A DNA stretch of 47,821 nt from a virus, in IMG/VR virus record IMGVR_UViG_3300014325_000019, positions 1 through 47,821 of that record; one strand, written 5' to 3'. Of this stretch, positions 2,857-47,581 are shown in pieces. A program made the position numbers and the translations under genes. A model generated the notes under the pieces. That model was not told the DNA's origin. It saw only the letters and a list, made by a program, of their open reading frames with translations, and searched no databases. How positions within the stretch are numbered: the stretch's first letter is position 1; each line of letters begins with the position of its first letter.

Positions 2857-2882
2857 CACTCCCCGAAGCGCTGTGCTACATT
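2853..2882 (+). promoter_or_regulatory. rightward promoter with operator between -35 and -10
   Basis: TTGACA (2853-2858), an 18-bp spacer and TACATT (2877-2882), with TG one base ahead of the -10 box (extended -10). This is the best sigma-70-type promoter in the early region. An operator half (2863-2876) fills the spacer and its mirror image lies just downstream. Expected start near 2889, about 55 nt ahead of the gene at 2944. Confidence 0.75.
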
Positions 2883-2896
2883 GCATAGCGCTTCGG
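2863..2896. promoter_or_regulatory. inverted pair of 14-bp operators, AGCGCT core
   Basis: CCGAAGCGCTGTGC (2863-2876) and GCATAGCGCTTCGG (2883-2896) are inverted copies of one site, with centres exactly 20 bp apart around the -10 box. The same site type occurs at 10282-10295, 42755-42768 and 47568-47581. A repressor bound here would block the 2853 promoter. Confidence 0.7.
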
Positions 2897-2916
2897 TTCT
2901 CTCTCTCGCGTTTGGC

Positions 2917-2938
2917 AGTCCCTTTATTGGAGCGACGC
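2917..2938 (+). repeat. leader box copy 2
   Basis: AGTCCCTTTATTGGAGCGACGC, differing from copy 1 at two positions, lies in the leader of the gene at 2944 downstream of the 2853 promoter. Confidence 0.75.
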
Positions 2939-2943
2939 CGGCA

Positions 2944-3207
2944 ATGCACGACACCACACCAGACGTATCCGCCATCCTTCGACCGGGCGATCGTGTCGCG
3001 GTCGCGACCGGCTTTGGATCCGGCCCGATCCAAGAGCACACCGCGATCGATATCGTCGTGGCTGAGTCAGACGCGCGCTTGCTCGAGGTACCGTGGGCGA
3101 CCTTGACCGACCGCGCGATCGTCGTCGACTTGGCCGGCGGCCGTTGGGCGTATGGCTGCCAGCTCTCGAGACCAACCGACCACCCGACCACACAACAACC
3201 CGAGTAG
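2944..3207 (+). CDS. hypothetical early protein
   Basis: 87 aa from ATG 2944, the first start after leader box 2; an earlier in-frame start at 2881 lies inside the promoter/operator and is unlikely. Beta-rich, small-domain-like sequence (ILRPGDRVAVATGFGSGPI ... RAIVVDLAGGRWAYG). It is the first gene downstream of the operator-controlled promoter, so it is directly under that regulator. No family is recognised. Confidence 0.6.
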   Translation: MHDTTPDVSAILRPGDRVAVATGFGSGPIQEHTAIDIVVAESDARLLEVPWATLTDRAIVVDLAGGRWAYGCQLSRPTDHPTTQQPE

Positions 3208-3229
3208 TCCCTTTTTCAAGGAGTGACGC
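3206..3229 (+). repeat. leader box copy 3
   Basis: AGTCCCTTTTTCAAGGAGTGACGC, with a two-base insertion relative to copies 1 and 2, directly precedes the GTG start at 3232 and supplies AAGGAG at 3218-3223. Confidence 0.75.
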
Positions 3230-3231
3230 TA

Positions 3232-3432
3232 GTGACCAAAGTGACCAAACGACAGGCCAACATTATCGACAAGGAGATCGAAGCGATTTTCCGCGAGCAC
3301 TGCGCGGGCGTGCAGATTCCGATCCTGCGACTCTCGGAGATTTTCGCGGCCGGCCATCAGGCCGCGATCGACGGGCGCGATCTGGTGCAGGCCGTCATTG
3401 CCGCCGCGCGGGCGATGGCGGTGCAGTCATGA
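3232..3432 (+). CDS. small helical hypothetical protein
   Basis: 66 aa if started at GTG 3232, set by the AAGGAG about 8 nt upstream; another GTG at 3223 lies inside the ribosome-binding site itself. The sequence is a basic start (TKVTKRQANIIDKEIE) followed by amphipathic helices (AIIAAARAMAV type). Its stop overlaps the next ATG (ATGA at 3429). Confidence 0.6.
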   Translation: MTKVTKRQANIIDKEIEAIFREHCAGVQIPILRLSEIFAAGHQAAIDGRDLVQAVIAAARAMAVQS

Positions 3433-3893
3433 GGATCGAAGACATCAGCGACGAGGTTTGGTCGGTCCCTGGCAAGAATTCGATCATTGATGCGATCGTG
3501 CGCGAGACCGGCTTGACGTGCTACCTCAAAGAAACCCCCGCGCAAGTACTCGCCCGGCATCCTGACGCGATTCGTCAGACGTGGGCGGACTGGCGCCAGG
3601 CCGCGATTGCCCGGCAGCAGACGCCGATCGGCTGGCGCCGGACCACGAAGGCGCGGTATCACGAAATGCTCGAGGTACTGCCGCCGGCTATGTGGATCGG
3701 CGGCGCGTTTCTCGTCGGTGAACCGCAGGATCACGACATCGCGACCGGATCGCCGCGCTTTGATGCATTCCGACACCGCCACGGCGTCTATGAGGCGTCA
3801 GACCGCCCGATCACGCGCGCCGAGCTGCGGGCCGTCCTGGCGCCGCAGTCCGCCAGCATCGCGGCCGACATCATGACGGAGTCAAAATCATGA
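3429..3893 (+). CDS. conserved phage/plasmid hypothetical (LPPxxxxGxxFLVGEPxxH motif)
   Basis: 154 aa starting at ATG 3429 inside the previous stop. The segment YHEMLEVLPPAMWIGGAF, then LVGEPQDHD and a short RFDAFRHR stretch, recalls a conserved hypothetical motif of plasmid- and phage-borne proteins (possibly the DUF1419 group; I am not certain). No catalytic residues can be assigned. It sits directly before the DUF3560 gene with an ATGA overlap, so the two are likely co-translated. Confidence 0.65.
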   Translation: MRIEDISDEVWSVPGKNSIIDAIVRETGLTCYLKETPAQVLARHPDAIRQTWADWRQAAIARQQTPIGWRRTTKARYHEMLEVLPPAMWIGGAFLVGEPQDHDIATGSPRFDAFRHRHGVYEASDRPITRAELRAVLAPQSASIAADIMTESKS

Positions 3894-4774
3894 CGTACCG
3901 TGAACGCCGCGCCGCCCGCGCCGATCGGTTACGCGAATGGTCCGGCAAGCGCGCGACGCGGAGCGCGCAGGCCTTCGCGACCGTCCATCGCATCGCGGAC
4001 GCGATCCCCTTCGGACAGCCGATCCTCGTGGGGCATCATTCCGAGCGTCACGCGCGCCGCGATCAAGATCGCATCTACCGCGGCATGCGGGCCGGCGTCG
4101 ACCACGCTGACAAAGCCGGCGAGATGGCGCGCAAGGCGGACGAGATCGACCGCCAGGCCGACCACGCGATCTATTCCGACGATCCGGACGCGATCGAACA
4201 GCTCACCGCAAAGATCGGCCGGCTCGAGGACGAGCGCGCGCAGATGAAAGCCCGAAACACCGCGTACCGGGCCGCACACCGCGCCGCGCTGGCCGCCATG
4301 ACGCCGTACGAACGGAGTCAATCGGTGCCACACCCGGCCTATGAGCTGCAAAATCTCGGCGGCAACATCACCCGGTGCCGCGAGCGCTTGCGCCTGTTGA
4401 GCGGCACGCCCGCGCCAGAAGCCGCCAGCGTGCCCGAGGGCGCGACCGCGACCGCGCGCGCCGGATTGGTCGTGCACGCCGAGATGACCACGCCTAGCCG
4501 GCCTGGCAAGGCGCCGCGGCCGGTCTGGACGGTCCGCGGCAACCTGGCGACCTGGCGCCCGCTGTTGGTCCGGCTTGATGGGAACTGGTACCGCGGCGCC
4601 TTTTCCTTCTGGGACGATCCGACCGCCGAGATCGAATCGGCCTGTCTTGAGGGCGAGCGCGCCGCGCTCGAGCGGCACCAGCTCGAGGATCCGCACTGCA
4701 CGTGCCCTGATTGCATCCTGGCGCACGCCGCGCAGCTCGAGAGCGAGGGCGCCGCGCCCAAGGCGGCCGAGTAA
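3890..4774 (+). CDS. DUF3560 domain protein
   Basis: 294 aa, the largest protein of the early block. Residues about 41-66 (FGQPILVGHHSERHARRDQD and following) carry the FGQPILVGHHSExRxRRD signature of DUF3560, a family typical of plasmids, ICEs and phages with no known biochemical role. A long charged coiled-coil (about 70-140) follows, then a Pro/Ala linker and a C-terminal part with HCTCPDCILAH, a possible metal-binding knuckle. Start and stop overlap both neighbours (ATGA, TAATG). Confidence 0.8.
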   Translation: MTYRERRAARADRLREWSGKRATRSAQAFATVHRIADAIPFGQPILVGHHSERHARRDQDRIYRGMRAGVDHADKAGEMARKADEIDRQADHAIYSDDPDAIEQLTAKIGRLEDERAQMKARNTAYRAAHRAALAAMTPYERSQSVPHPAYELQNLGGNITRCRERLRLLSGTPAPEAASVPEGATATARAGLVVHAEMTTPSRPGKAPRPVWTVRGNLATWRPLLVRLDGNWYRGAFSFWDDPTAEIESACLEGERAALERHQLEDPHCTCPDCILAHAAQLESEGAAPKAAE

Positions 4775-5118
4775 TGGGCGCCGCAGCTTACAACCGAGGG
4801 ACGCGAGCGATCAGCGCGCAGATCGACCGCGAGCGGCCGTCAAGCGGCCTTCAGCTCTTGCGCGATCTCACGGCCTACTCGGATACGCACGCCACGTGCG
4901 TACCCTTCGCCGACACCGTGATCCGCTTCGGGCCAACGCCCGGCCTGGTCACGCTCATGAACCGCCAGGCCGGCGGCTGGCGCCAGCGCGGGTACGAATA
5001 CCGATCGCTGTGGACGCTCGCCCGCGCCTGGCGGCTGGTGTTCCTGCGGCTGGACGCCGACGAACACGGCCGCTACGTCGCCGTCGCGCCGCAACCGATA
5101 CCACGGGTGCAGCCATGA
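4774..5118 (+). CDS. hypothetical early protein
   Basis: 114 aa. The ATG at 4774 shares a base with the previous TAA (TAATG); the frame is open from 4711 but that would overlap DUF3560. It begins MGAAAYNRGTRAISAQID, an arrangement seen in small plasmid/phage hypotheticals that often neighbour DUF3560. No function can be given. Confidence 0.6.
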   Translation: MGAAAYNRGTRAISAQIDRERPSSGLQLLRDLTAYSDTHATCVPFADTVIRFGPTPGLVTLMNRQAGGWRQRGYEYRSLWTLARAWRLVFLRLDADEHGRYVAVAPQPIPRVQP

Positions 5119-7184: not shown

Positions 7185-7189
7185 CGAGC

Positions 7190-7930: not shown

Positions 7931-8118
7931 CCAAAGAACGCGCGATCGAATTACTGCGGCGAGTGTTGCAGGCCAACGCGGATGGCGTCACGCTCGAGGG
8001 CCGCGAGATGTTGGAAGCCACCTATGCGCTCGGGTACGCCGTCGAAGTACTCGAGCAGCACACCACGATCGAGACGTTCGACGGCGTCGTGTCGGATCTG
8101 GCCCCATGGCTCGCATGA
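7927..8118 (+). CDS. small helical hypothetical protein
   Basis: 63 aa from ATG 7927 (ATGA overlap). Two helices (TKERAIELLRRVLQANAD; MLEATYALGYAVEVLEQH) without basic surface or cysteines. Function unknown. Confidence 0.55.
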   Translation: MTKERAIELLRRVLQANADGVTLEGREMLEATYALGYAVEVLEQHTTIETFDGVVSDLAPWLA

Positions 8119-9813: not shown

Positions 9814-10022
9814 CGCGCCGGCCGCCCACACGACCGCCGAAAACGGGCCGGTGGCCCAACACGACCACAACGGGCGCACTCGCCTGTGCGTTCGGGACGC
9901 CATGGCTCGATCACTTTCAGCCGCCGGTCGGGAATGGGCGCGGATGTGCGGAGTGTGCGCGGCACGGCCGGCCCGCTGCGCGCCGTGCGCCGAAGCGCAA
10001 GGCGCGGAAGCGGCCCGGTTAG
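9810..10022 (+). CDS. small basic Cys-containing protein
   Basis: 70 aa from ATG 9810. Pro/Arg-rich start, CAECARHG near the middle and a strongly basic end (RRAPKRKARKRPG). It converges with the leftward gene 10019-10261; their ends overlap by 4 bp. Confidence 0.5.
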   Translation: MTRRPPTRPPKTGRWPNTTTTGALACAFGTPWLDHFQPPVGNGRGCAECARHGRPAARRAPKRKARKRPG

Positions 10023-10261
10023 ACGGTGGGGAGAACGGCAGACGAGCTGTCGGGCGCGGGACCGGCATCGGCCGGCGGCCAGGGTTTCCCGTGACGAGCG
10101 GCGGCGGCCTTTCGGCCCAGCTCTGACGCGCGCTCGGGCGAAAGATTCCGCTTGCGCGCCAGGCCGCCGAGGCGACCGAGCGCTTGCGCGGCCGGGTTGG
10201 GTTTCTTCGCGCGCGCCCCTTTCGCGACTTTCTTCTTGCTGACTCGCTTCGTGGTTTTCAT
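10019..10261 (-). CDS. small Lys/Arg-rich DNA-binding-type protein under AGCGCT operator
   Basis: 80 aa from the ATG at 10261. The N-terminus is very basic (TTKRVSKKKVAKGARAKK) and is followed by QALGRLGGLARKRNLSPERA and LGRKAAAARHGK, a repeat-like motif known from small basic bacterial and phage proteins. A Pro/Ser tail follows. It is the only leftward gene in the early block and has its own promoter, whose -10 box (TATCCT, 10274-10269) puts transcription start at about the ATG, so the mRNA is probably leaderless. The perfect operator palindrome lies just upstream. It may be nucleoid-associated or itself a regulator; neither is shown. Confidence 0.65.
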   Translation of the reverse strand: MKTTKRVSKKKVAKGARAKKPNPAAQALGRLGGLARKRNLSPERASELGRKAAAARHGKPWPPADAGPAPDSSSAVLPTV

Positions 10262-10268: not shown

Positions 10269-10296
10269 AGGATAGCACGACGCATAGCGCTATGCG
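10269..10296 (-). promoter_or_regulatory. leftward promoter with 16-bp perfect operator palindrome
   Basis: CGCATAGCGCTATGCG at 10281-10296 is a perfect palindrome containing the 14-bp AGCGCT-centred site. On the minus strand the extended -10 TGCTATCCT (TATCCT at 10274-10269) lies 6 bp downstream of it. The region also separates the divergent genes at 10261 (leftward) and 10334 (rightward), so one bound protein could affect both. Confidence 0.65.
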
Positions 10297-10333: not shown

Positions 10334-10597
10334 ATGAGCACCGTCACCGAGATCACGATCGAAATCTACGCCGACACCCGGCGCACGGGCCGGTGTCGGA
10401 GCTGCCGGGCGTCGCTGCAATGGGCGATCGTCGTGGAGTCAGGCAAGAAACTCCCGTTTGATGCCGATCGCTTCGCGGTGATCTCGACGCGGCGCGAGGA
10501 CGAGACCAACCGCTTGATCGAACGGGCCGACCGCCGCACGAATCATTGGGCCACGTGTCCCGGCGCGCACTTGTTCAAAGAGAAGGGCAAAGGCTGA
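10334..10597 (+). CDS. zinc-binding small protein (CRSC motif)
   Basis: 87 aa from ATG 10334; an earlier in-frame ATG at 10292 overlaps the operator and was rejected. CRSCRASLQWAIVVESGKKL, then WATCPGAHLF, give the paired Cys/His ligands of a small zinc domain. This type often precedes a nuclease gene in phages, as here: its TGA overlaps the ATG at 10597. Confidence 0.65.
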   Translation: MSTVTEITIEIYADTRRTGRCRSCRASLQWAIVVESGKKLPFDADRFAVISTRREDETNRLIERADRRTNHWATCPGAHLFKEKGKG

Positions 10598-12012: not shown

Positions 12013-12486
12013 CTAGGACTGATCCGGATCTTGGCGATCGGCGGCCGACCCCGCCGGCACCATTTCACCCAACGCGCTGCGGACGAGATCGGTTCGGCGC
12101 ACTTGGCGCGCATGCAGCACGCCGGTCAGGGTGACGACCGTCGCTTGCAGCCCTTCGTTGATGAGCGTGAGCCGTTTCACATCGTCGGTCAGGCGGGTCA
12201 AGTGCCCGTTGGTTTGCTCCGCGATAGCTTTCGTCGTCTCATGCACTTCTTGGGCTTTCACTGCGGCGTCGGCCGCTTTGCCGGCGGCGACTTCCGCGCT
12301 GACGGCGGCGGCGTCGGCCTTCACGCCGATCGCGTCGGTCTTCGCCTCGACCTTGTCGGTTTTGCGCCCGTTGCGCAGCGAGAACAACGCCGCCGCTAAC
12401 GCGGCACAGGCCGTGAGAATGGCCGGGAGCTGATTGATCAACGCAATCGCAACGGGCGGCTGCACGACGGCGGCGGCGGTGTCCAT
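12013..12486 (-). CDS. membrane-anchored coiled-coil protein (holin/spanin-like layout)
   Basis: 157 aa. One membrane segment near residues 14-41 (IALINQLPAILTACAALAAAL) is followed by a basic RNGRKTDK stop and a long Ala/Lys/Glu coiled coil to about residue 115. This is the layout of phage envelope proteins such as Rz-like inner-membrane spanins or hemolysin-XhlA-like proteins. It lies between the ejection-type proteins and the end of the operon, as lysis genes often do. No lipobox partner or endolysin was found. Confidence 0.6.
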   Translation of the reverse strand: MDTAAAVVQPPVAIALINQLPAILTACAALAAALFSLRNGRKTDKVEAKTDAIGVKADAAAVSAEVAAGKAADAAVKAQEVHETTKAIAEQTNGHLTRLTDDVKRLTLINEGLQATVVTLTGVLHARQVRRTDLVRSALGEMVPAGSAADRQDPDQS

Positions 12487-12503: not shown

Positions 12504-13967
12504 TTATTTTTTGAGCAAGGCGAGAAACGCGGGCGACTGCATCAACGCCTCGAGCGCCGCCGCCTGGTCGGGATCGGTCGCGGTCGTCGGCGCCGCACGG
12601 CCGGCCGCACGCGCGGCGCGGGCCTCGGGAGAAAACTCCGCGAAGCGGGAGAGCGGCGCCCCGCGGGTCGACGCGCGCGGCACGGCCGCCGCCGCCGTAG
12701 GCGCCTCACTCGCGACCACGTCACCCGCGACGGCCGCCGCCTCGGGCACGGCCGGGCTCGCGGCGCGCTGCAAGGCGCCGAGCGATCCCCACGTGGGATA
12801 GGTGGGCGCGGGTGGAGCGCCCGGCCACCCCGTTGCCTCAAGGGCCGCGCCGCCGGCCGGTGGCGCCTCGCTGGCCTTGGCGCCCATCGACCGCAGCCAC
12901 GCCGGGTATTCCGGACCGGCGCCGGCCGCCGCGGGCGGGATCCCCGTCCCGGTCGCCTCGAGCCCCGCCACGCCGGCCGGCTGTGCCTCGGTCGCCTTGG
13001 CGCCCATGGACCGCAGCCACGACGGGTATTCCGGGCCGCCCGTCGCCGCAGGGGGAGCGCCCGGCCATCCGGTCGCCTCAAGGGCCGCATCGCCGGCCGG
13101 CTGATTCGCCGTCGCTTCGTCCCCGAGCGTCCGCAACCAGGACGGATACTCCGGTCCGGCGCCGGCCGCCGCGGGCGGGATCCCCGTCCCGGTCGCCTCG
13201 AGCCCCGCCACGGCGGCCGGCCGCGCCTCGGTCGCTTTCGCCCCCATGGAATCCAGCCAGGCCGGATACCCCGGATTGGCTTCCATCGTGGCGCGACGCC
13301 GGGCGGCGGCCTCGAGCCCACGGAAGGCGGGCAGCGCCTCGGGCTCGGCCGCCTCGACCCCTGGCGTGAGCCCGCGGGCCACACTCCCGAACGCCGTCCG
13401 CGCGCCCTCGGGCGTCAACCCCTCCCCAAACCGCTCCAGCGCCCCTAGGACGGGTTTGGACGTCGCGGCGTCCATCGCCAGGCCCTTGGGCGACGAGAAC
13501 GTTAGAAGCCGTTTTAAGCCGGCTGGCAGCACATTCCCGGCGGCGGCCTTGGCCGCGCCCAGCCCGCGCGCCCCGGCGGCCAGCGCGGACCCCCCGTAGC
13601 CCATCACCGCGCCTTCCGCGAGGTCGCCGACCGCCCCGCCGACCGTGGGCGCGTCCGTCCGGCCCGTGGCCAGCAATTGCGACAGATGCTTGAGCCCGCT
13701 CGTCGCCGCGGGAATCGCCGCCACCAGCGGCGCCCCGGCCCCGCTCGCCGTCGCCAGGCTGCCGAGCAGCGCGTTGACGGTCTGCGGCTCATCCTCGAGC
13801 AGATGGCGGGTCGCGCCGCCCGCCCACGAGGTCGCGATGTCGCCGCCGGCAAAGCCGCGCTCTTGCTTCGCGCGCTGAATCAGATCGGTATCGGACATCC
13901 CCGCCGGCCCGTCGAAGTGCTGCACGTGGCCATCGGGAAACGTGACGGTGTATTGCTGTCGCGGCAT
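12504..13967 (-). CDS. probable internal virion (ejection) protein with ~40-aa repeats
   Basis: 487 aa. The N-terminus (QYTVTFPDGHVQHFDGPAGM ... DTDLIQRAKQ) is the short FPDG domain often found at the start of phage internal or lytic structural proteins. An Ala/Gly-rich region follows, then about four ~40-aa units (residues about 232-396) built on YPxWLRSMGAKATE and ALEATG, alternating GTGIPPAAAGAG and GWPGAPPA forms. Position at the end of the virion block and low complexity suggest an ejected protein; I see no muramidase motif. Confidence 0.6.
   Translation of the reverse strand: MPRQQYTVTFPDGHVQHFDGPAGMSDTDLIQRAKQERGFAGGDIATSWAGGATRHLLEDEPQTVNALLGSLATASGAGAPLVAAIPAATSGLKHLSQLLATGRTDAPTVGGAVGDLAEGAVMGYGGSALAAGARGLGAAKAAAGNVLPAGLKRLLTFSSPKGLAMDAATSKPVLGALERFGEGLTPEGARTAFGSVARGLTPGVEAAEPEALPAFRGLEAAARRRATMEANPGYPAWLDSMGAKATEARPAAVAGLEATGTGIPPAAAGAGPEYPSWLRTLGDEATANQPAGDAALEATGWPGAPPAATGGPEYPSWLRSMGAKATEAQPAGVAGLEATGTGIPPAAAGAGPEYPAWLRSMGAKASEAPPAGGAALEATGWPGAPPAPTYPTWGSLGALQRAASPAVPEAAAVAGDVVASEAPTAAAAVPRASTRGAPLSRFAEFSPEARAARAAGRAAPTTATDPDQAAALEALMQSPAFLALLKK
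12790..13275 (-). repeat. ~120-bp tandem repeats, A-B-A-B pattern, inside the 487-aa gene
   Basis: About four tandem units of roughly 120 bp encode ~40-aa modules starting YPxWL. Units one and three share the GTGIPPAAAGAGPE end, units two and four the GWPGAPPA end, so the unit that was duplicated was probably an A-B pair of about 240 bp. Confidence 0.7.
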
Positions 13968-16777: not shown

Positions 16778-16963
16778 TTACGGGGTGACGGGTGGCACGG
16801 GCGTGGTGACGTCGTCGGCCGACGCCAGATCGATCTTCTTCGCTTGCAAGGCCAGCACGATCGCCTTCACGTCCGCGAAGAGTTGATCGAAGTTGGCATC
16901 CACGCGCGAATCGACGTCGCTGACGTCATGCCGCTTGCCGCGAATGACGAGACTCATTTTCAT
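16778..16963 (-). CDS. small structural-block protein
   Basis: 61 aa from ATG 16963, which overlaps the upstream TGA (ATGA); an ATG two codons later is also possible. It has a beta N-terminus (MSLVIRGKRHDVSDVDSRV) and a helix (NFDQLFADVKAIVLALQAKK) and ends in a Pro/Val tail. Possibly a small tail or connector accessory; function unknown. Confidence 0.6.
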   Translation of the reverse strand: MKMSLVIRGKRHDVSDVDSRVDANFDQLFADVKAIVLALQAKKIDLASADDVTTPVPPVTP

Positions 16964-18570
16964 CGGCGGACTCGATTGCTGACCGGGTAATAAGGCACTT
17001 CGTAGCCGTACACTTCGCACGCCGCGCCATTCGTCTCGTCATGGATCTCGAGCTGCAAGAATTGCCCGGTGCCCACGCGCGGCAGCGTTTCGGTCCCGAG
17101 CCGCAGATCGAGCGGGACCGTTTGCGTCACGTCGACGTCGATCGGCCCGACGCGGTACTGCACGCGACACTGCCCCATCAGGGCGATCGCGCGCGTCATG
17201 AACGTCGGCGCCAGCCACGTCTTGAGGATCGTCGGCGCGTCCGCATCGTGCCATTTCGATCGCAGGACGATCGGGATCGCGACGCCGGCATCGCTGTAGC
17301 CGGCCTGATTGAGCACGTAGATCGTGCCGTCGTCCGCGCCAAGCACGGGCAACGCGTTGCTGCCGGCGTCGATCAACGTAAAGCCCGACGTCGGCCCGGC
17401 CTTGTTCGTGCGATGCGGCCCATGCCAGGCGCCGCTCGCGCGGTCGTACGACACCCAGCGATCGATCGTCGTGCTGCCGGCGGCGGCCAGGTGCCACTCG
17501 ATCGAGTCATAGCGCTCGTTGTATTTGACGAACGCGTCGGCGAAGCGCGCGCGGTTGAAATCGTCGTCTTTCGCGAACCATCGCCGCACGCGCCCATCCG
17601 AGAGACACTTGAAGCCGTCCGCGCCCCACTCGTAGACACCATCCGGCCCGAGGTAGTACGCGGTATCGCCGACGACGATCGACGGCCCGAAACACCCTTG
17701 CCCGTTTTTGTCGGCGTTGACGTCCCATTGCGGCACGCCGTCGCCATCGGGCAAGCCGCCCGACACTTTCGTGAACCCGGTGCGCTTCGCGACGCCGAGC
17801 AGATCCTTGCGCGCCATCAAGCCGGTGATGCCGAATTCGTCGGCGCCGATCGGATCGATGTCGAGCCCGTACGTCGCCGGCCAGCCGTACGCCAGGCCTT
17901 CGCCGGAATACCGCAACGTGTCGACGTGGCGATTCCCGACGCCCCACAGGCGATTTTTCCACGACGTGAGCAGCGTCATGAACGAGGACGGCAGCAGGCC
18001 GGGCCCGGCGCCCAGCTCGCGCGGCGCCGCCAGGTTCGGCAGCAGCAGATCCGAGAGATCATCGGCGATCGTCGTTTGGCCCGCCTCGACATCGAGCCAC
18101 CAATAGAACACGTCGCCATCGGCCAACGTGCGATACAAGCGGTGATGCGTCGTCGACAAGTCGGGACTCGCGCTGATCCCGGTGACGTTCAAGAGCCCGC
18201 CCGCCAGCGTGAGCGGCGCCGAGATGGGCGAGAAATCACTTTCAGAGACGAGCCCGCCCGTCTCCGGATCAATCTGCGCGTGCGTGTACTTGACCTGGTA
18301 CGTGCCGGCGAGCCCGCCGATCCCGCCCACGCCCAAGACGACGGCGCTCACGGGTGCGACGAGCTGCAACGGCCGCACGTTGAAATCCGGATCAATCGCG
18401 AGACTGCGCGTCGGATTGTTCGTGAGGATCACGTTGCGGCCGAACACGGCCAGCCGCGGCGGCCTGGTCGTCGACAGCGTGACGCCATCGGGCAGCGGCA
18501 ACGGCGTGGCCACCCCCGCCGACGACACGCGATACAGCGTCGCCCCGGCGACGACAATCGCGTACGGCAT
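16960..18570 (-). CDS. putative podovirus tail/nozzle beta-propeller protein
   Basis: 536 aa. It reads as a beta-rich tail protein: VILTNNPTRSLAIDPDFN early, an immunoglobulin/FnIII-like stretch around residues 90-150 ending in HHRLYRTLADGD, then GVGNRHVDTLRYSG, GVYEWGADGFKCLSDG and RWVSYDRASGAWHG, spaced like the blades of a T7 gp12-type nozzle. It follows directly from the 1143-aa tail gene. The nozzle role is inferred from these motifs and position. Confidence 0.6.
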   Translation of the reverse strand: MPYAIVVAGATLYRVSSAGVATPLPLPDGVTLSTTRPPRLAVFGRNVILTNNPTRSLAIDPDFNVRPLQLVAPVSAVVLGVGGIGGLAGTYQVKYTHAQIDPETGGLVSESDFSPISAPLTLAGGLLNVTGISASPDLSTTHHRLYRTLADGDVFYWWLDVEAGQTTIADDLSDLLLPNLAAPRELGAGPGLLPSSFMTLLTSWKNRLWGVGNRHVDTLRYSGEGLAYGWPATYGLDIDPIGADEFGITGLMARKDLLGVAKRTGFTKVSGGLPDGDGVPQWDVNADKNGQGCFGPSIVVGDTAYYLGPDGVYEWGADGFKCLSDGRVRRWFAKDDDFNRARFADAFVKYNERYDSIEWHLAAAGSTTIDRWVSYDRASGAWHGPHRTNKAGPTSGFTLIDAGSNALPVLGADDGTIYVLNQAGYSDAGVAIPIVLRSKWHDADAPTILKTWLAPTFMTRAIALMGQCRVQYRVGPIDVDVTQTVPLDLRLGTETLPRVGTGQFLQLEIHDETNGAACEVYGYEVPYYPVSNRVRR

Positions 18571-18572
18571 CG

Positions 18573-21500
18573 CTACTCGCCCCCTTCGACGCGCACAATG
18601 CCGAGCGGCCCGCGCACGTTCGGCAGATTACTGAGCACGACGGACCACGCGCCGGCTGCCGACCGTTTCAAGAGCCCGCCCTTGCCGGCGCCCGAGGACC
18701 CACTAGCCAGCGGCCAATAGATATCTCCGTCGCTGTCGGGATCGAGCAGCGGCATGCCCGATCGGCCGTACTCATTGCTGAGTAGGTTACTGATCGAGAA
18801 GTCGACGACCCACACGACGCCGTCGACGGATCGCAGGATCACGATCATCGGCGCCGTCCCGCCAGACACCGAATTGCGAAACGCGAGGATGGTCCCGCCA
18901 TCGGCCGTCACGATCATCGGCCCCACGGAATTGCCGGCGCCGTTCCCGTCGGTCATGTACGCGATCGACCACACGGCAGCCGGCGGCACCAGGACCGCGA
19001 CGGCCGTCCCGACAATGGCCGCGCCACTCAAGCCCGTCACGCCCGTCAACACGCCGGGCCCGCTCGTCGTCGTGCGCCCGGTGTAGGTGATCGCTTGAAT
19101 GCCGACTTGCGCGGCGCCGCCGGCTGACGAAAAGTTAGTGGTGTCGCCCACGGGGACCGCGGTCGCGCCCGCGGGCACCGAGAGCACGACGGCCGCGCCG
19201 TGCAGGATGACGGCCGCGATCCCCGTCACGCCCGTCAGCTCGCCGGGTCCGCTCGTCACCGACCGCCCGGTGTAGCGCACGGTTTGCCCGCTCACCGCGA
19301 CGGCGCCCGGTACCAGCAACGAGGCCACGTCCGCCACGCGCAGCGCGGTCGCGCCGATCGGGACCGCGGGCGTGATCGGGACGCCACTCGCGAGCCCACT
19401 GCCGAGCCCCGTGACGCCCGTCAGCGTGCCCGGCTTCGGCAGGCCCGAGGTATCGATCGTCGGCGCAAACACGTTGAGCAAGGCGCTGTCGGGCGCCGCA
19501 TCCAGCAACGTCGGCGACGTCGTATCGATGTACCCCAACAGCTTGAATTGCGTCCCGTTGGCGATCGTGCGATAGACGAGGCGATTCGTCGCGCCGGCCG
19601 GCGCCACCGGGAGACTCGACAACGCGACTTGATGCGTGATCGCCGTGTTGCTCGAGGGCGGCGCCGCGCCCGCGGTCGCGTTGGCCAACGCGTCGCTCCA
19701 CGTCGACCCCGACGCCGGCAGCGAGGCGACGAGGCGATACACGCCCGCGCCGTTGAAGCGTCGATACAGATTGCGCGACGTGACGAGCGGCCCGCCGGTC
19801 GGCAACGCGGTGAGCGGGATCGTGCGATATTGCGTCACGATGCCCGTCGTGTTCGACGTCGGCGCGGCGCCGCCCAAGCTCGAGTTCGGCACGGTGTCGG
19901 TGTACGTCGTGACGCCGTTTTCGTTGAACGTCGTCACCAGGTTGAACGCGCCGCTTCCGTTGAATCGGCGATAGAGGCGACGGCCCGTCACGCCGGCCGG
20001 GCCGGTCGGGATCCCCGTCAGGGGGACTTGCTTTTGCGGCGTCCCGATCGTCGCCGTGTTGACGGACGGCGGCGCACTCCCCGGCGTTTGAAACTGGACG
20101 CTATCAAACGACGCCGTGTTGTTGTTGACGGTCTTCATGAACCCGAACGCGCCGCCCCCGAGCGACCGATAGAGCCGCCGCGCGATCGTCCCCGTGCCCC
20201 CCAGCGCCAAGGGCACACTAATGAAACTGGCCGGGCCCGTGAGCGTGACCGACCCTGCCGGGCTCGGCGTCGTTTCGCCGGCCGCGTTCACGAACGTGTA
20301 GCACACCCCAACCGTCACGCCGGGGTTGTACGGATCCATGGTGAAGCTGGGATCGACATAGTTCGGCGTCAATGACGGCGCCGACGAGGGCGGACTCAGC
20401 GTCGTCACGCCCGGCACGCTGACGGGCGCGCTGATCGCGCCGAGATCGGTCTCGCCGATCGCCGTCAGAAACGTCGTGGCGTATTCATGACTCCCCGCGT
20501 CTGGTCCGGTCCCCGTGGCCGGCGTACCGGGCGACGGCGCCGAGCCCGGCGCGGCCGTCCCGCCCGAGGTCACTGGCCCCGCCGTGATCGCCGCGCTCAC
20601 GGGCCCGAGCGTCGTTTCGCCCGCCGCGGTCACAAACGTCAGACCGTAATCGTGCGTGCCCGCATCGAGACTGCCGCCGACCGTCGCCGCGCCGGCCGTA
20701 GGCGCGGCCACGGGCGCGGCCAACGTGCCCGTGACCACGGTGGCCACCGCACTCGGCAACGATTCGCCGATCGCCGTGCGATTGGTCACGACGTACTGAT
20801 ACTGGCCCGCGCCCATGCCGGCGCCCGAGTTGGGCGTCACGACGGGCGCCGGCACGACGGCGAGCGTACGCCCGGTGTAGTTGATCGTTTGACCGCTCAC
20901 GCTGGCCGCGCCGACGAGCAGCAGAAACAAATCCGTGTCCGCGACCGGAATCGCCCCCGCGCCCCCCGCGACGGCGCCGACGACCGTGGTCGGGCCGCCG
21001 ATCGCGACGGTCGTACTGCCGCCGAGCACGCTCGTCGTGCGCGTCGCACTGCCGCCGGCCGCTTGGCGCCGCTTGCGAATAAAGCCGTGCGATCCCGCGT
21101 CGGCCGCGGAACTTTGATACAGCTCGCCCTTGAAAACGCAGAGGCCTGTGCAGTACCCGTGTGTCGTCGAGAAACTATCGTCCGTCGTCCACGACGCATC
21201 GCCCGGCCGAATCCACCGCGTGACGAGCGGACCGCCCGCGCTGACATTCGCGCCCGCGATCCACACGCGCCCTTGCCACACGACGATCCCGCCGATGATG
21301 TGACCGGACGCGAGATCCGTGCCCGCGCCGAGCTGCGAGAGCGCGCCGTTTTTGATGTCGAGCGACAGCACGCGGGCGCGGCCACTCGTGCGATCGGCCA
21401 CGGCGACGAGTAGTTGCGTCGCGCCATACGGCACGATGCTCGTGATCCCGAACGCGCCGAACGTGTTCCCCGCATCGGCCGGGTTGGGCGGCACGCGCGC

Positions 21501-42744: not shown

Positions 42745-42748
42745 GCAC

Positions 42749-42778
42749 ACCTTACCGTAGCGCTTCGGACCACGTCAA
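42749..42778 (-). promoter_or_regulatory. late leftward promoter with AGCGCT operator in the spacer
   Basis: On the minus strand TTGACG (42778-42773), an 18-bp spacer and TAAGGT (42754-42749). The spacer holds CCGAAGCGCTACGG (42768-42755), the same operator type as at 2863, 10282 and 47568. It is placed to drive the whole late operon down to about 11000, and it overlaps the 3' end of the HerA-like gene. Confidence 0.7.
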
Positions 42779-44607
42779 GTCAGGCTCGGATGCGGGCGGA
42801 TCGTGTCGTCGTCGCCCACCACAATCAGACCACGCGCGGCCAGGCGTTGCAGGTAGGCGTTGCGCGTTGATTTTTTGAAGCCGCTCGCCTCGGTCAAGGC
42901 GTCCCGCTGCGCGGTCCCGTCGGCGATCAGCCGCAGCAAGACCGCTTCGCCGGCCGGCAGCCGGTCGTACCACCAGTCGCGCAGCGCGGCGCCTTCAGGC
43001 GGGCGCTCCACGGGCCCGGCGACCATCACGCCCGCCGACGTCGCGGTCACGCGATCGTTGGTGACCACCACGAGCCCGCGCGCCGCCAAGCGTTGCACGT
43101 ACGCGTTGCGCGTCGATTTTTTGAAGCCCGTCGTGAGCGTCAAATGCTCGCGGGTGGCGCCGCCCAACCCCACAACCGACCGCAAGAGCGCCACTTCGCC
43201 GGTTCCGATAGGACCGGTGTCGGCCGACGACGGCGGCGCCGCCGGCTTGTCGTCCGGTTTGACCGATTGTTTCCGACTCTGACCGGGTTTCACCGCGGCC
43301 GGCGGCGGCGCGGGCGTCGGCTTCGGCGGCGGTGTCCACGCGCCCCACTGCTGACCACTGCGAAAATCCGCGTGTTTCAAGCGCTCGAGGTACGCATCCG
43401 TGGCCGCGAAAATCGACGACCACGCGGTCCGATTGTCGACGCCGAGCTGTCGCAGCGCTGCCGCGGCCTCGATCACGCGCGCGTGAAACCGCATGACGTC
43501 CTTCAGCATGCGATCAAGTTTTTTGAGCTGCGCTTTCGCCGCGCGACCCTTCACGGCGATCGCGAGCTGATCCCGTTCCGCGACGACGGCCGCGAACTTG
43601 CGTTGCAGCTCGAGGATCTGCGTGCGTTGATCCGCTAGGGATTGCTTGAGGGCGTTCGGATCATTGGCTTTGACGTGGGCGAGCGTCGCGGCCATGCGTA
43701 CCTCGAGCGCGCCAAGGTCGACGCGGGCCGCGTGTTTCGGTGCGCGCCCTTTGTGACTGGTCGGCGTCGACGACGAATCGAACGTCTCGGGTAACTGCAT
43801 CTGCACGCGTTCGAAAATGCCGCGCCCATTCGGCCAGCCGGGCGCCCACACGAAGGCCTCGCCTTGCGCCATCGTCGGCAGCGACTCACGCACCGCGATC
43901 CGCTCGGCCGCGGTGCCATGGACCGCGATCCACGTATCCATCGCTTTGAGATCGAGCGGCGCGATCGTGCGCAACACGATCAGGATCCCGATCTGCGTCA
44001 ACGCGCTCTTGGATAGCTCCGCGGTGCGTTGCGTGATCATCACGCAGCCCATGCCGCGTTGTCCGCCGCGCCGCACGATGTCTTCGACGGCTGCCGCCAT
44101 CAGCCGCTCACCCGCGCGATCGGATTTCTGCGGCGCGATTGTGTCGGCCTCGTCGATGATGAGCGTCATCGCCGTGCGATAGCGTTCGTCGGCCTTCAGC
44201 CGATACAGCGTCTCGAGAAACGGCGTCATAAAGGTCGGCACGTCGTCTTTGCGAAAGTGCGACAAGTCGAGAATCACATTCACGCGCTCCATCACCACCA
44301 GGCGCGCGACGACTTCGCCGGCTGTCAGCTCGAGCGGTACGTGTCCGTGGCCACCGCCGAGCACGATGAACGGCAGGCCCGGCCGTTTGCCATCGCGCGC
44401 GTAGAGCAAGCCCCACCAGTCGCCTTTCGGATCGACGATCGTGACCTGTTGTTTCGCTTTGAAAAATTGTTCCGTGAGCCGGCGGGCCGTCGTGCTCTTG
44501 CCGGCGCGGCGCTTTGCCAGAATGCCGATGCTTTCCGTGACGGCCTCGATCGGCAGACTGAATCCGTTGACGCCGAGCACTAACCGCGAGTGTGTTTTGG
44601 TTTTCAT
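42775..44607 (-). CDS. HerA/FtsK-type ATPase with tandem winged-helix C-terminus
   Basis: 610 aa from ATG 44607, chosen from the ATGA overlap with the upstream gene. ATPase core of the HerA/DUF87 group: Walker A AKRRAGKST at 31-39, Walker B LIIDEAD at about 149-155, then QRGMGCVMITQRTAELSKSA. A coiled coil follows (about 310-400), then a Pro-rich linker. The last ~130 residues hold two copies of a winged-helix unit, each with GFKKSTRNAY(V/L)QRLAARGL. It should form a DNA-pumping or remodelling hexamer. Confidence 0.75.
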   Translation of the reverse strand: MKTKTHSRLVLGVNGFSLPIEAVTESIGILAKRRAGKSTTARRLTEQFFKAKQQVTIVDPKGDWWGLLYARDGKRPGLPFIVLGGGHGHVPLELTAGEVVARLVVMERVNVILDLSHFRKDDVPTFMTPFLETLYRLKADERYRTAMTLIIDEADTIAPQKSDRAGERLMAAAVEDIVRRGGQRGMGCVMITQRTAELSKSALTQIGILIVLRTIAPLDLKAMDTWIAVHGTAAERIAVRESLPTMAQGEAFVWAPGWPNGRGIFERVQMQLPETFDSSSTPTSHKGRAPKHAARVDLGALEVRMAATLAHVKANDPNALKQSLADQRTQILELQRKFAAVVAERDQLAIAVKGRAAKAQLKKLDRMLKDVMRFHARVIEAAAALRQLGVDNRTAWSSIFAATDAYLERLKHADFRSGQQWGAWTPPPKPTPAPPPAAVKPGQSRKQSVKPDDKPAAPPSSADTGPIGTGEVALLRSVVGLGGATREHLTLTTGFKKSTRNAYVQRLAARGLVVVTNDRVTATSAGVMVAGPVERPPEGAALRDWWYDRLPAGEAVLLRLIADGTAQRDALTEASGFKKSTRNAYLQRLAARGLIVVGDDDTIRPHPSLT

Positions 44608-45311
44608 AAGGCTTTCGTCCACGTGCGATGCCGGCGTCGCGTCCACGTCCGCGCCGGCTCGGCGTCGCGCACGGCGTAGACGTGGCCACACGCGCGGCAG
44701 CTCGTCGTGATGAATGGTCCGCTCCGTAGCTCGGATGTGGGTTTCGATTGTTTGCAGTCGGGACAGTCGCGCACGTCGACATCTGGACATCCACGAGGAC
44801 CTGACGGCGCGACGCGCGCGGGCTCGTCATCACCGGGCGCCGCGATCGTCGACTCGAGCGCTTCACACATCGCATCGGATTCGACGATCGCGTTCACCAA
44901 TGCGAGTGCCGCGCGCGCGCGGTCGCGTTCGAAGACGACGCGCGGATCATCCGGCGGCGCCGCCGGCATGACCTTGGGTTTCAGCTCGGGCACGTTCAAG
45001 CGTTTGCGGATCGTTACCAGGACCGACGCGGCATCGTGTCGCGTGAGATTCGGGCCGAGGTCGACGCGTTCAATGGGTCGGCCGACGCGCGGTAGTTCGT
45101 GCTCTGGGTCGCCGCGGGGAATCCCGCGGACCTTGCCGGCGTGTTCGACTTGCGTGATCGCCGAGTGAATGCTGGCCGAGTCGTAGGGGATTGGCGGCTT
45201 GAACCTGGCGCACCGTCGACTGACCGCTTCGATGAGGTCGGAACGGCGCGCGAATCGGCCGGCCTTCAGGACGTCGTAAACGACCGCGATGATGAGTTTT
45301 GGATTCGGCAT
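44604..45311 (-). CDS. zinc-ribbon protein coupled to the HerA-like ATPase
   Basis: 235 aa from ATG 45311. The N-terminal half is winged-helix-like (LIIAVVYDVLKAGRFARRSD ... IHSAITQVEHAGKVRGIPRG). The middle is helical, and the C-terminus is a zinc ribbon (DCPDCKQSKPTSELRSGPFI and TTSCRACGHV). Its stop overlaps the ATPase start (ATGA), so the two are probably made in fixed ratio and act together. DNA binding is likely; no named family. Confidence 0.6.
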   Translation of the reverse strand: MPNPKLIIAVVYDVLKAGRFARRSDLIEAVSRRCARFKPPIPYDSASIHSAITQVEHAGKVRGIPRGDPEHELPRVGRPIERVDLGPNLTRHDAASVLVTIRKRLNVPELKPKVMPAAPPDDPRVVFERDRARAALALVNAIVESDAMCEALESTIAAPGDDEPARVAPSGPRGCPDVDVRDCPDCKQSKPTSELRSGPFITTSCRACGHVYAVRDAEPARTWTRRRHRTWTKAL

Positions 45312-45335
45312 TTGTGGTGCCCGAAAACGACGATG

Positions 45336-45352
45336 AAAAATCGCGAAGCGAT
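45336..45352 (-). terminator. weak intrinsic terminator
   Basis: On the minus strand ATCGC-TTC-GCGAT is followed by TTTT (45339-45336). The stem is only 5 bp, so termination would be partial. It would separate transcription from the replication region from the 44604/ATPase pair. Confidence 0.35.
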
Positions 45353-45393
45353 GCACTAATTGCTTCTAGTACGAAGAACTCCGCAGGTTATAG

Positions 45394-45421
45394 GCAGGGC
45401 GAAGCGATAGCGTAGCCCTGC
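45394..45421. repeat. inverted repeat GCAGGGC...GCCCTGC
   Basis: GCAGGGC (45394-45400) and GCCCTGC (45415-45421) are perfect arms around 14 nt that themselves contain GAAGCGATAGCG. It lies between the iterons and the ATPase pair, and may be a terminator stem or a protein-binding site. Confidence 0.45.
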
Positions 45422-45472
45422 TCTTCTCTGGTTAGAAGTACCTCTGGTTCAATGATTCTGGTTCTTGCTGCG

Positions 45473-45603
45473 ACACCCATGACCCCACCGTGGGGTCACC
45501 CATGACCCCACCGTAGCGCCATCCTTGTCGCCACCCCTTGTCACCCATGACCCCACCCCCTAGACACCCATGACCCCACCCCCTAGACACCCATGACCCC
45601 ACC
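45473..45603. other. iteron array, candidate replication origin
   Basis: Five 17-bp direct repeats (A/T)CACCCATGACCCCACC start at 45473, 45496, 45541, 45564 and 45587. The spacing is 23, 45, 23 and 23 bp; a degenerate sixth copy fills the double gap near 45519. A period of two helical turns is typical of Rep-binding iterons in plasmid origins. The array lies just downstream of the winged-helix gene 45680-46117 and close to the partition genes. No DnaA box was checked. Confidence 0.75.
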
Positions 45604-45679
45604 CACGCGGCAGTCAGCTTCGCCAAAACAGGGCCGAACACATGGTGTCGCCCTGCCTGAACATCGCCCGAAAATTGGC

Positions 45680-46117
45680 TTACTTTTTGGTCCCGAAACG
45701 CCCCTCTTTGACCGGCGCTGGCGCTTGCTGCTGCGCGTCGATCAGGGCTTCAGGTTTATTGAAAAGAATGGTGTAGAGATTCGTGGTTCTATCGCCGAAG
45801 TGGTCGTATCGAGCTTCAATGATGATCGCCCCAAGCGTTTGTAGCTCGATAAGTGCCCGATCGACCGTGCGCTCTGACACGCGTAGGTCTTTCGCGAGTG
45901 CCCGCCGTGACGGATGGCACGTGTCCGTAGAGCGGTCGGCGTATTTTCCGGCCAGGAACCCATAGAGGCGGATCGCGATGGATCCAATAGCGCTTTCGAG
46001 CAGCCACACGGGCATCATCCCGTATGGCCCGATCTGCGATCGCGCGTCGCTTCTACGCGCCATGCCGGCACCTGGCGGGAGTGGTGTCGGCCGCTTGTCG
46101 ACGCGCCGCGGCTTCAT
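45680..46117 (-). CDS. winged-helix replication-type protein
   Basis: 145 aa from ATG 46117; a later ATG at 46063 is possible. MPVWLLESAIGSIAIRLYGF and then CHPSRRALAKDLRVSERTVD and IELQTLGAIIIEARYD make a clear winged helix-turn-helix of the replication-initiator/HTH_36 kind. It sits between the iterons and the partition genes, so it is the best candidate for the initiator that binds the iterons. It is short for a plasmid Rep and has only one obvious winged helix. Confidence 0.65.
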   Translation of the reverse strand: MKPRRVDKRPTPLPPGAGMARRSDARSQIGPYGMMPVWLLESAIGSIAIRLYGFLAGKYADRSTDTCHPSRRALAKDLRVSERTVDRALIELQTLGAIIIEARYDHFGDRTTNLYTILFNKPEALIDAQQQAPAPVKEGRFGTKK

Positions 46118-46160
46118 AGTGACCGTCCAGACGTAAGGTAGTGTGTGGCATCCGTTTGTA

Positions 46161-46192
46161 TAGCGGCATGCATTCCAGCCAACATGCCGCTA
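46161..46192. promoter_or_regulatory. perfect 10-bp inverted repeat upstream of the winged-helix gene
   Basis: TAGCGGCATG (46161-46170) and CATGCCGCTA (46183-46192) are perfect arms separated by 12 bp, about 45-75 bp before the winged-helix start. The following 46193-46292 is AT-rich. It is placed for autoregulation of the replication gene; a terminator role is less likely because no T-run follows. Confidence 0.55.
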
Positions 46193-46292
46193 CGCAAAAC
46201 GTCGCACGGGGATAAACAAAACGCAAGCAAAAAGCGAGTTTTCATTAGAAAATCCGCGCAAGAACAGGCGAACAAAACAACGAAAGTGGGGT

Positions 46293-46553
46293 CTATTCGT
46301 CGAGCGGAATGATCGCGGGCTTTTTGTATTTCTCAAAGAGGTCGTTCAACGCTTCGGACAACAGCCGTTGAATCGTTTTGCTCTGTTCGGCGGCCAGAAT
46401 GCGAAGCTGTTTTTTGACGTCGAGCCCAAAAAAACCCGTGATGGGAGATTTATGGTCCCGGCCAGGCCTGGCGCTCGTCGCGGGTGTCACGGCGGCGGCG
46501 GGTGTGGGCTGTGCGCTCTTGCGCATTGCGGACACGAGGTTGCTTTTTGCCAT
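46293..46553 (-). CDS. ribbon-helix-helix partition partner (ParB/ParG-like)
   Basis: 86 aa from ATG 46553, directly after the ParA stop (TAAATG). A disordered basic N-terminus is followed by KSPITGFFGLDVKKQLRILA and AEQSKTIQRLLSEALNDLFE, a ribbon-helix-helix fold found in small centromere-binding partners of ParA. Such proteins bind parS and usually repress their own promoter. Confidence 0.75.
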   Translation of the reverse strand: MAKSNLVSAMRKSAQPTPAAAVTPATSARPGRDHKSPITGFFGLDVKKQLRILAAEQSKTIQRLLSEALNDLFEKYKKPAIIPLDE

Positions 46554-47186
46554 TTACACGGTCTCCTTGAGTAGTCGGTTGACGAAGCGATAGACGGCGC
46601 GGATTTCATCGGCTGCTTTGCCGGCCGGCGCGAATTCTTGCGCGCTCTGCCCGGTTTCAGCGCTCTGCGCATAGGCTTTTCGCAGCCCGAGCGCGGTAGG
46701 ACACACGGTCAAGCCCAGCTCGTGAAGAATGCTGGCGGCTTGTGTGCGTTCGTCGCCGATCGCCGGCACGCCGTTCAGGACGGCGGCCACGGCGATCGAT
46801 GGGCCCGAGAGTTTGAGTAAATCGAGCGTGGTCGACACGGTGTCGAGGTCGAACACGGCCGGCCGACAGGGAATCAACACCAGGGTGGCGGCTCGAGCCG
46901 CGCTCAAGGCCGCCTGTTCAGCGCGTGGCGGCGTGTCGATGACGACCAGGTGTGTGCCGCCCTCACTGGCAGTCTGTAACACGCGCGGAAGTCGTGCGGG
47001 TTGGGCGGAAATCACGAACGGCGGGTGTTCGCCGCGGCGGTCATACCAGTTCGTTGCCGTTGCTTGAGGGTCGAGGTCGATAATCGCGACGGTCCGCCCG
47101 GCAAGATGCGCCGCGACAGCCAACGAGAGCGCGAGTGTGGTCTTGCCGGTGCCGCCCTTTTGAGCAATCACAGAAACAACATGCAT
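46554..47186 (-). CDS. parA: ParA-type partition ATPase
   Basis: 210 aa from ATG 47186. KGGTGKTT at residues 10-17 is the deviant Walker A of ParA/MinD proteins, followed by AIIDLDPQATATNWYDRRGE and the Walker B-like LVVIDTPPR. It is a short ParA without an N-terminal HTH (type Ib class). With the downstream ribbon-helix-helix gene it should segregate the replicon. Its start has no Shine-Dalgarno and the promoter predicts a leaderless or nearly leaderless mRNA. Confidence 0.9.
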   Translation of the reverse strand: MHVVSVIAQKGGTGKTTLALSLAVAAHLAGRTVAIIDLDPQATATNWYDRRGEHPPFVISAQPARLPRVLQTASEGGTHLVVIDTPPRAEQAALSAARAATLVLIPCRPAVFDLDTVSTTLDLLKLSGPSIAVAAVLNGVPAIGDERTQAASILHELGLTVCPTALGLRKAYAQSAETGQSAQEFAPAGKAADEIRAVYRFVNRLLKETV

Positions 47187-47196
47187 ATAAGTTGAA

Positions 47197-47225
47197 TGGT
47201 ATACCAAGTGAAGGGCAGAGCGCAA
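47197..47225 (-). promoter_or_regulatory. parA promoter with TGGTATACCA palindrome
   Basis: On the minus strand TTGCGC (47225-47220), a 16-bp spacer and TATACC (47203-47198). The -10 lies in the 10-bp palindrome TGGTATACCA (47197-47206), a likely autorepression operator. Related GTATACC sequence occurs at 97-103. Confidence 0.5.
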
Positions 47226-47288
47226 GCATGGTAGTGTGGGCGAGAGGGTTTTATTGGTGGAAACGCGAACAAAAAAGAGGATGACGAC

Positions 47289-47561
47289 ATGGCGACAGTA
47301 ATACCAGTCGTAGGTGAAGCGCGCGAGGTCTCGCCAAAGAAAGGCCGGGTGTTCAAGTTAGCCGAGCTGCGAGCGGTCGTCGGCGGCGATATTCAAGCGG
47401 TCCCCGCGCCCGATGGCCGCACGCTGTATCTCAATGAGCACGGCAAATACCAGCAGTTACCGAGAAATACGGCAGCCACGACGCTCATGCGCGCCTGGTT
47501 GCTGTCCGACGACTACATCGCGGGTGACGTGATCCTATGCTCACGCAAGGAAGCGCCCTAA
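47289..47561 (+). CDS. DUF3846 family protein
   Basis: 90 aa from ATG 47289, preceded by AGAGG about 9 nt upstream. FKLAELRAVVGGDIQAVPAP, then LYLNEHGKYQQLPRNTAAT and a C-terminal AGDVILC, match the DUF3846 pattern (LxxLQxxVGGxI ... NEEGxLxxLPxNxxAT ... GxxL). The family is common on plasmids and phages and has no established role. It is divergent from parA. Confidence 0.75.
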   Translation: MATVIPVVGEAREVSPKKGRVFKLAELRAVVGGDIQAVPAPDGRTLYLNEHGKYQQLPRNTAATTLMRAWLLSDDYIAGDVILCSRKEAP

Positions 47562-47567
47562 CACAAT

Positions 47568-47581
47568 ACATAGCGCTATGT
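47568..47581. promoter_or_regulatory. perfect 14-bp AGCGCT operator
   Basis: ACATAGCGCTATGT is a perfect palindrome just after the DUF3846 stop and 16 bp before a perfect -10 box (TATAAT, 47598-47603). A protein bound here would cover the -35 position of that rightward promoter. Confidence 0.65.

Follow-up and report, generated by a model that had tools for sequence, protein, structure and literature searches.

Five copies of a short symmetric dyad with an AGCGCT core stand outside the called genes of a 47,821-base virus record, IMGVR_UViG_3300014325_000019 (classed as linear; the whole stretch is hereafter the window, and its positions carry the prefix W where two genomes are compared). We propose that these dyads (O1 to O5; Table 1) are probably the operators of one phage-encoded repressor, an 80-amino-acid (aa) basic protein whose gene adjoins the best palindrome, and which would repress its own gene and act at the other sites. 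The original prediction had placed one operator at promoter-type positions of the early, basic-protein and late units, had read it as a genome-wide lysogeny switch and had left its repressor unnamed. The genome-wide set was upheld: the dyads are enriched, lie outside called genes, sit in or by promoters and show three correspondences in a relative. The lysogeny switch is a possible role, which these data do not separate from a Cro-like shut-off between early and late expression. As for the repressor, the small basic protein beside the best palindrome is now a likely regulator.

The sequences at all of the predicted positions were confirmed. The copies at 2863-2876 and 2883-2896 are exact matches to the 14-mer first used as the motif, CCGAAGCGCT(A/G)TGC, and are inverted with 20 bp between their centres; the copy at 10282-10295 lies within the 16-bp perfect palindrome CGCATAGCGCTATGCG. 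As a description of the whole set the 14-mer proved poor, with two mismatches at 42755, three at 10282 and no match within three at 47568, and its count at up to three mismatches (17 versus 21.9 expected) indicated no enrichment. The symmetric dyad CRNAGCGCTNYG, by contrast with expectation, occurred five times in the window versus 0.65 expected, a number that none of 100 shuffles reached. Its matches, at 2864, 2884, 10283, 42756 and 47569, are exactly the five reported places, and none of them is inside a called gene. The share of the window outside called genes is 12.5%; the calls came from a simple script that missed some genes, such as 2944-3207. A loose half form, GAAGCGCT, was also enriched (10 copies versus 2.7 expected), yet 7 of the 10 were within called genes. 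A similar density inside genes, which the original prediction had named as evidence against an operator, was thus found for the loose forms of the motif and not for the full dyad. A position weight matrix (PWM) gave eight window hits at score 11, versus a mean of 1.45 and a maximum of 5 in 20 simulated sequences, and the eight top-scoring hits were all outside called genes. The matrix was trained on sites of the window and the relative G001 and is hence partly self-fulfilling; the hits at 294, 46181 and 45510 were not in the training set. The dyad sites are real.

G001 (IMGVR_UViG_3300005844_000041, 43,552 bases) is colinear with the window in inverted orientation, and its capsid protein is 86% identical. 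It contained seven dyads, none within called genes, versus none for a reversed-pattern control. An unseeded dyad search of G001 ranked TAGC-GCTA first, with five of five copies outside called genes. Three of the G001 dyads are at places corresponding to window sites. The same divergent gene pair, coding for the 87-aa and basic proteins (67% and 66% identity), flanks W10283 and G001 37483. W42756 and G001 4846 both lie just behind the gene for a HerA-like ATPase and head the late unit in the same layout. W2864/2884 and G001 43187 stand at the head of the early unit, and the leaders there are similar.

At the early and late promoters the dyad is located between the −35 and −10 elements. It occupies the spacer of TTGAC(A/G/T)-18-TANNNT at W2853, W42778(-) and G001 4836, and its centre falls near −20 at these three promoters (dyads W2863, W42755 and G001 4846). 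This location, together with O2 over the expected start site, gives the geometry of a repressor. MerR-type activators bind within spacers of 19-20 bp; the 18-bp spacers at the three clearest promoters, none of them long, mean that activation of this type is not needed. The claim that the sites accompany good promoters held for 2853-2882 and 42778-42749(-), which are well formed. It was weaker at the 10282 site, which has an extended −10 (TGCTATCCT, minus strand) and no good −35, and unclear in direction at 47568, where O5 overlaps a minus-strand TTGACA (47584-47579) and stands 5′ of a plus-strand TATAAT (47598-47603), so that transcription could run either way.

The operator led to the protein when viral contigs were scanned, on their DNA sequence only, for promoters that contain it. 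The scan returned 39 stretches, 28 of them distinct. In the L077 group and in L083, the promoters stand directly before a gene for a 48-51 aa basic protein resembling the product of 10019-10261, and such a gene is close by in L071 and L088. A family profile of six members, with L071, L077, L083, L088 and G001 as seed clusters, identified the family on 21 of the 39 contigs (14 of the 28 distinct ones, and 9 of 23 without the seed clusters). In seven of these nine unseeded contigs the family gene was less than 240 bp from a dyad: 5 bp in L066 (dyad behind the gene), 239 in L068, 36 in L073, 16 in L075, 98 in L076, and 63 in both L090 and L093; the distance was 567 bp in L100, and the gene of L103 was far away. 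The nearby dyad of L075 is a second one, other than the pattern-matching dyad. As controls, the family was present on 2 of 33 other viral contigs, neither time beside an AGCGCT site, and on 0 of 22 contigs selected with the permuted core ACGCGT in the same pattern (Fisher tests for the unseeded clusters, p = 0.003 and 0.0009, respectively). The control contigs are not matched to the others in length or origin, and the short distance between gene and site therefore carries more weight than these counts. Judged by eye, the other gene under these promoters varies between phages, and the basic protein is the constant partner.

The search was also run from the protein to the operator. Protein similarity gave 101 viral loci (the best 80 of 101 were kept in one step), reduced to 89 non-redundant ones, and 15 genome loci from Acidobacteria, Terriglobia, Binataceae, Deltaproteobacteria, Myxococcales and Phycisphaerae records; later genome loci (L205-L285) were reduced to 64. 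In the 89 upstream regions, the seven top hexamers were pieces of TTGACA and TATACT plus AGCGCT (9 versus 2.05 expected), AAGCGC (14 versus 4.1) and CAAGCG (12 versus 3.3). A sigma70 promoter scan limited to spacers of 16-18 bp found a scorable promoter with its −10 ending 5-8 nt before the start codon in 17 of 105 upstream regions (6 nt in 12 of them). AGCG or CGCT was present in 16 of 16 unique spacers, two of which are seed loci, against an expectation of 2.0 (500 shuffles gave at most 6), and AGCGCT in 4 of the 16 versus 0.06 expected. Family genes with a clear promoter of their own therefore look, as read from sequence, near-leaderless and hold the operator core between −35 and −10. The window's own gene is missing from the 17 because its −35 is poor; its start codon is 7 nt past TATCCT (10274-10269), so its message, too, may be leaderless.

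Exact AGCGCT was also found upstream of family genes in Binataceae and Acidobacteria/Terriglobia records (L205, L207, L209, L218, L219 and L237). One Acidobacteriota contig (L218) has both a TACCGCTA core in the spacer and, at 906, about 80-90 bp 5′ of its family gene, a perfect CGTAGCGCTACG dyad. The operator flank and the class of protein tail may co-vary: TAGCG flanks accompanied 11 of 17 members of one comparison group and 1 of 10 of the other (p = 0.014), a hand-curated, post hoc count with hand-listed rows from which L075 and others were left out.

The missing regulator is most likely, from these sequence relations, the 80-aa basic protein, whose family recurs with this type of operator in phages unrelated to one another as well as in certain bacterial genomes. 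Its family shares the core KNPxAVALGRxGGxAR, followed by LTPEQRSEIARKAAxARW in one class and by a KKGGRPRK tail in another. Seventy members were usable, 22 of them in one class; a set of 26 comprised the window protein, 18 of these 22 (without L159, L190, L201 and L202) and seven others, two of them, L068 and L090, starting one codon late. The window protein matched no Pfam family at E ≤ 0.1, ≤ 1 or ≤ 5, including any helix-turn-helix (HTH) family such as lambda-type or P22-type repressors contain, and no NCBIfam model, and the family had no confident match in PHROGs (best E 0.09). One relative matched HTH_OrfB_IS605 below the cut-off (17.9 bits, cut-off 21). AlphaFold placed helices at residues 23-39 and 42-57, in blocks at a predicted local distance difference test (pLDDT) of 84-90, which suggests a two-helix hairpin; Foldseek found no match for this predicted fold in the PDB, and a PDB sequence search gave seven weak matches (best E 0.14), none convincing. 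Family queries had no match in phage and plasmid records, where proteins of this kind may be masked by a low-complexity filter. Annotation of the family is almost absent.

We propose the following mechanism. The basic protein would bind as a dimer or a pair of dimers and would repress its own promoter from the O3 palindrome. At the early (2853) and late (42778-42749) promoters the same protein would obstruct RNA polymerase by binding between −35 and −10, and it would do likewise at 47568; a single protein would then govern all five sites. Early and late transcription would be held down in a plasmid-like resident state, with autoregulation. Both the sites and the partition genes agree with a standing repressor of this kind in a plasmid-like prophage, and this is the most likely role. 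The alternative, a Cro-like early-to-late shut-off, agrees with them almost equally, apart from the site that the late promoter bears as well.

Other readers of the dyads were weighed against the basic protein. A repressor of the host, such as an SOS or stress regulator that has the small basic gene among its most frequent targets, would likewise account for the linkage of operator and gene, and the family does occur in bacterial contigs, some with AGCGCT upstream. We consider this unlikely, since operator and family occur together in viral contigs ranging from 0.40 to 0.66 G+C, since four contigs of capsid relatives that lack the protein (three of them 12-26 kb fragments) also lack an excess of operators, and since flank and tail class may co-vary. 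Another phage protein could be the reader, and the HerA-like ATPase, the ribbon-helix-helix (RHH) protein and the replication-initiation-like protein all have DNA-binding domain matches. G001, possibly incomplete, retains the sites and yields no match to ParA, the RHH protein or the replication protein. For the HerA-like protein, which has relatives in 32 viral loci (20 of them drawn on here), site counts in 19 other relative contigs were not above control (8 versus 12). We rejected these candidates individually, and a reader of this kind is improbable.

The 2863-2896 pair scores as terminator-like (14 pairs, loop 6) and might act in RNA as a hairpin or terminator instead of forming two operators. 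We regard this as very improbable, since the −10 TACATT would form the loop of such a hairpin and since the remaining sites, like the matching promoter of G001, have single dyads; despite the hairpin look, two dyads are the better reading. Chance, that is, ordinary AGCGCT sequences in a G+C-rich genome, would explain why loose forms are common, in genes too. It can hardly explain a full dyad about 8-fold over expectation, outside called genes in both genomes and at corresponding places, and is the least credible of these explanations. The phage-encoded basic protein is the reading that we favour.

Several points weigh against this assignment. We infer DNA binding by the basic protein from sequence linkage, and a small gene that some other regulator often targets could produce the same recurrent association. 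Pfam, NCBIfam and PHROGs recognise no DNA-binding domain in the protein, its AlphaFold model is weak overall (predicted template-modelling score, pTM, 0.37), and the −35 of its own promoter is poor. Half of the operator-pattern clusters (14 of 28) have no family gene on the contig, though many contigs are fragments; no promoter could be scored for 88 of 105 members, and many lie within operons; and AGCGCT is absent within 90 bp in 25 of 33 short-form genome members, while in two of the eight that have it, L234 and L256, the upstream stretch is probably coding. The motif-discovery check was only partly favourable: the unseeded dyad search that ranked the motif first in G001 did not have it among the ranked results in the window, where the arms vary. 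The comparison of corresponding sites involved one close relative, G001, and the genes directly behind its early and late sites differ, with extra small genes intervening: at the late site the matching 69-aa gene comes after two additional small frames, and at the early site the next gene is different, the window's first early gene being matched about 1.1 kb further on. A wide regulon is visible only in the window and G001, which look special in this respect; among the other 38 phage contigs with the pattern, 30 have one dyad and 8 have two.

Phage repressors with several operators are already known. Phage P1, with its plasmid-like prophage, has C1 operators at several promoters; these are asymmetric, and C1 is much larger than the 80-aa candidate. 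In lambda-type CI/Cro switches, and with PY54 Cro, a small repressor acts on short symmetric operators over early promoters. The window differs from these in a candidate without HTH and in operators placed in the −35/−10 spacers of separate promoters. The KorA/KorB regulon of IncP plasmids covers several plasmid promoters, and its palindromic operators have AGC/GCT arms, a likeness to the window operators; KorA and KorB have known HTH domains. According to one report, Cluster A mycobacteriophages have one repressor with binding sites (stoperators) spread across the phage genome, each asymmetric and bound by a repressor monomer with two DNA-binding domains (PMC9283540). On that account the window is alike in having a single candidate phage repressor with sites scattered over the genome. 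It differs in that the sites are few and are symmetric dyads, and in that the candidate has only a predicted helical hairpin and no HTH match, as opposed to an HTH plus a stoperator domain.

The family is also comparable to KGG repeat proteins (PF10685). It has KGG-like repeats, and 3 of the 26 members matched PF10685 at E ≤ 0.1 (best 2.1e-5), with two further members at 9.9 and 10.2 bits, below the cut-off of 20.4; the window protein itself has no such match. One report on KGG proteins links them to stress and biofilm, and the term DNA binding, hyphenated or not, is absent from its main text (PMC9262955). The candidate family, operator and promoter cassette were not found in the open-licence papers searched; a single TAGCGCTA lead turned out to be a mutagenesis primer.

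Table 1. Sites, promoters and genes of the window considered in this study
Feature	Position	Strand	Remarks
Early promoter TTGACA-18-TACATT	2853-2882	+	Well formed; gene 2944-3207 and early unit downstream
Operator O1	2863-2876	+	In −35/−10 spacer of early promoter
Operator O2	2883-2896	-	Just 3′ of −10, covering expected start site
Operator O3	10281-10296		16-bp perfect palindrome between divergent basic-protein gene and 87-aa gene
80-aa basic protein	10019-10261	-	Predicted autoregulated DNA-binding regulator; adjoins best palindrome; 66% identity in G001
87-aa Cys-containing protein	10334-10597	+	Divergent from candidate regulator gene; 67% identical in G001; phrog_5984, unknown function
Late promoter TTGACG-18-TAAGGT	42749-42778	-	Well formed; heads minus-strand unit toward terminase, portal and capsid genes
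Operator O4	42755-42768	-	In spacer of 42778-42749(-) promoter
Operator O5 (ACATAGCGCTATGT)	47568-47581		7 bp past end of DUF3846 gene 47289-47561
Possible weaker operator TGCATAGCGGCACGCA	294-309		PWM 12.4; about 20 bp 5′ of possible start codon at 329
Possible weaker operator ACCGTAGCGCCATCCT	45510-45525		PWM 11.3; inside iteron-like array
Inverted repeat	46155-46198		16-nt arms, 88% complementary; TAGCGGCATG half-sites (TAGCGG) upstream of replication-like gene 45680-46117(-)
HerA-like ATPase	42775-44790		Winged-helix matches near C-terminus, apparently two repeats
Iteron-like array	45472-45604		23-bp tandem repeat, about 5.8 copies, GTGGGGTCATGGGTGTC-like on minus strand; beside replication-initiation-like gene
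Replication-initiation-like protein	45680-46117	-	DNA-binding domain match
RHH protein	46293-46553		Beside ParA; DNA-binding domain match

Among the additional sites in Table 1, the one at 294-309 would be taken in by a longer reading of the 329 frame, from 254. The 46155-46198 repeat could be either a site of the same regulator or one for autoregulation by the replication protein, and a related repeat, differently arranged, is present in G001 at 1496-1549.

The terminase, portal and capsid genes are on the minus strand and the early unit is on the plus strand; ParA, the RHH protein and the replication-initiation-like protein are grouped toward the right end. Phage structural genes occur here together with those for partition and replication and with a 23-bp iteron-like array, a combination most naturally read as a phage-plasmid, and ParA, the RHH and replication-initiation-like proteins and the array together suggest a plasmid-like resident state. 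Pfam searches with 50 further window proteins (the largest structural proteins and some small frames were left out) found no repressor domain, and DUF3560 was the sole match. An Rfam scan gave nothing at gathering scores. In phage records there was no near DNA match to W30000-47821, and two partial matches to the HerA-like protein; the terminase as query had no matches, and the portal matched G001 only. The capsid alignment in a species-genome collection gave 105 pattern matches with no relative among them.

A more distant relative, G024 (capsid 64% identical), had two sites versus one in the control, no operator set and no family protein. We rejected an operator common to G024, in which an 18-bp palindrome occurs four times within a longer repeated unit. 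The four blocks (L060, near 47023, 47579, 48166 and 48963) each contain the 18-bp perfect palindrome (GGTCGGCTCGAGCCGACC) and a second hairpin-like stretch, and all are in the early region, outside called genes. At the right end of G001 (L049:3403-3552) the contig closes with a perfect tandem repeat of 30 bp, with CGCGCGTCTGACCATTCCCGA-like repeats of 25 bp a little further in. In the window, a 240-bp/120-bp tandem repeat (12807-13250) lies within the gene for a 487-aa protein (12504-13967). A 559-aa open frame at 17041-18720 (+), antisense to the structural gene 16960-18570, aligns to G001 as well, probably as a by-product of conservation on the opposite strand. ARAGORN called a tRNA at 12368-12457, anticodon undetermined, that overlaps a called gene and is probably false.

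Beyond the window, we hold as an evenly poised proposal that the basic protein founds a new family of DNA-binding autorepressors of minimal size (about 43-80 aa), built as a helical hairpin of KGG-like repeats and lacking any known DNA-binding fold. Its members would travel with a portable cassette, in which an AGCG-core operator lies in the −35/−10 spacer and a near-leaderless gene begins 6-7 nt after the −10, across phages and several environmental bacterial groups, and in the lineage of the window the protein would have been promoted to a genome-wide master repressor. The DNA signature, an operator in the spacer and a start codon 6-7 nt behind the −10, serves to find members and targets, and the proposal offers a cheap, concrete functional test for a nearly unannotated family of small proteins. 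If the protein does bind these sites, it would be a new kind of very small phage repressor, and would illustrate how a self-regulating gene can grow into a genome-wide switch.

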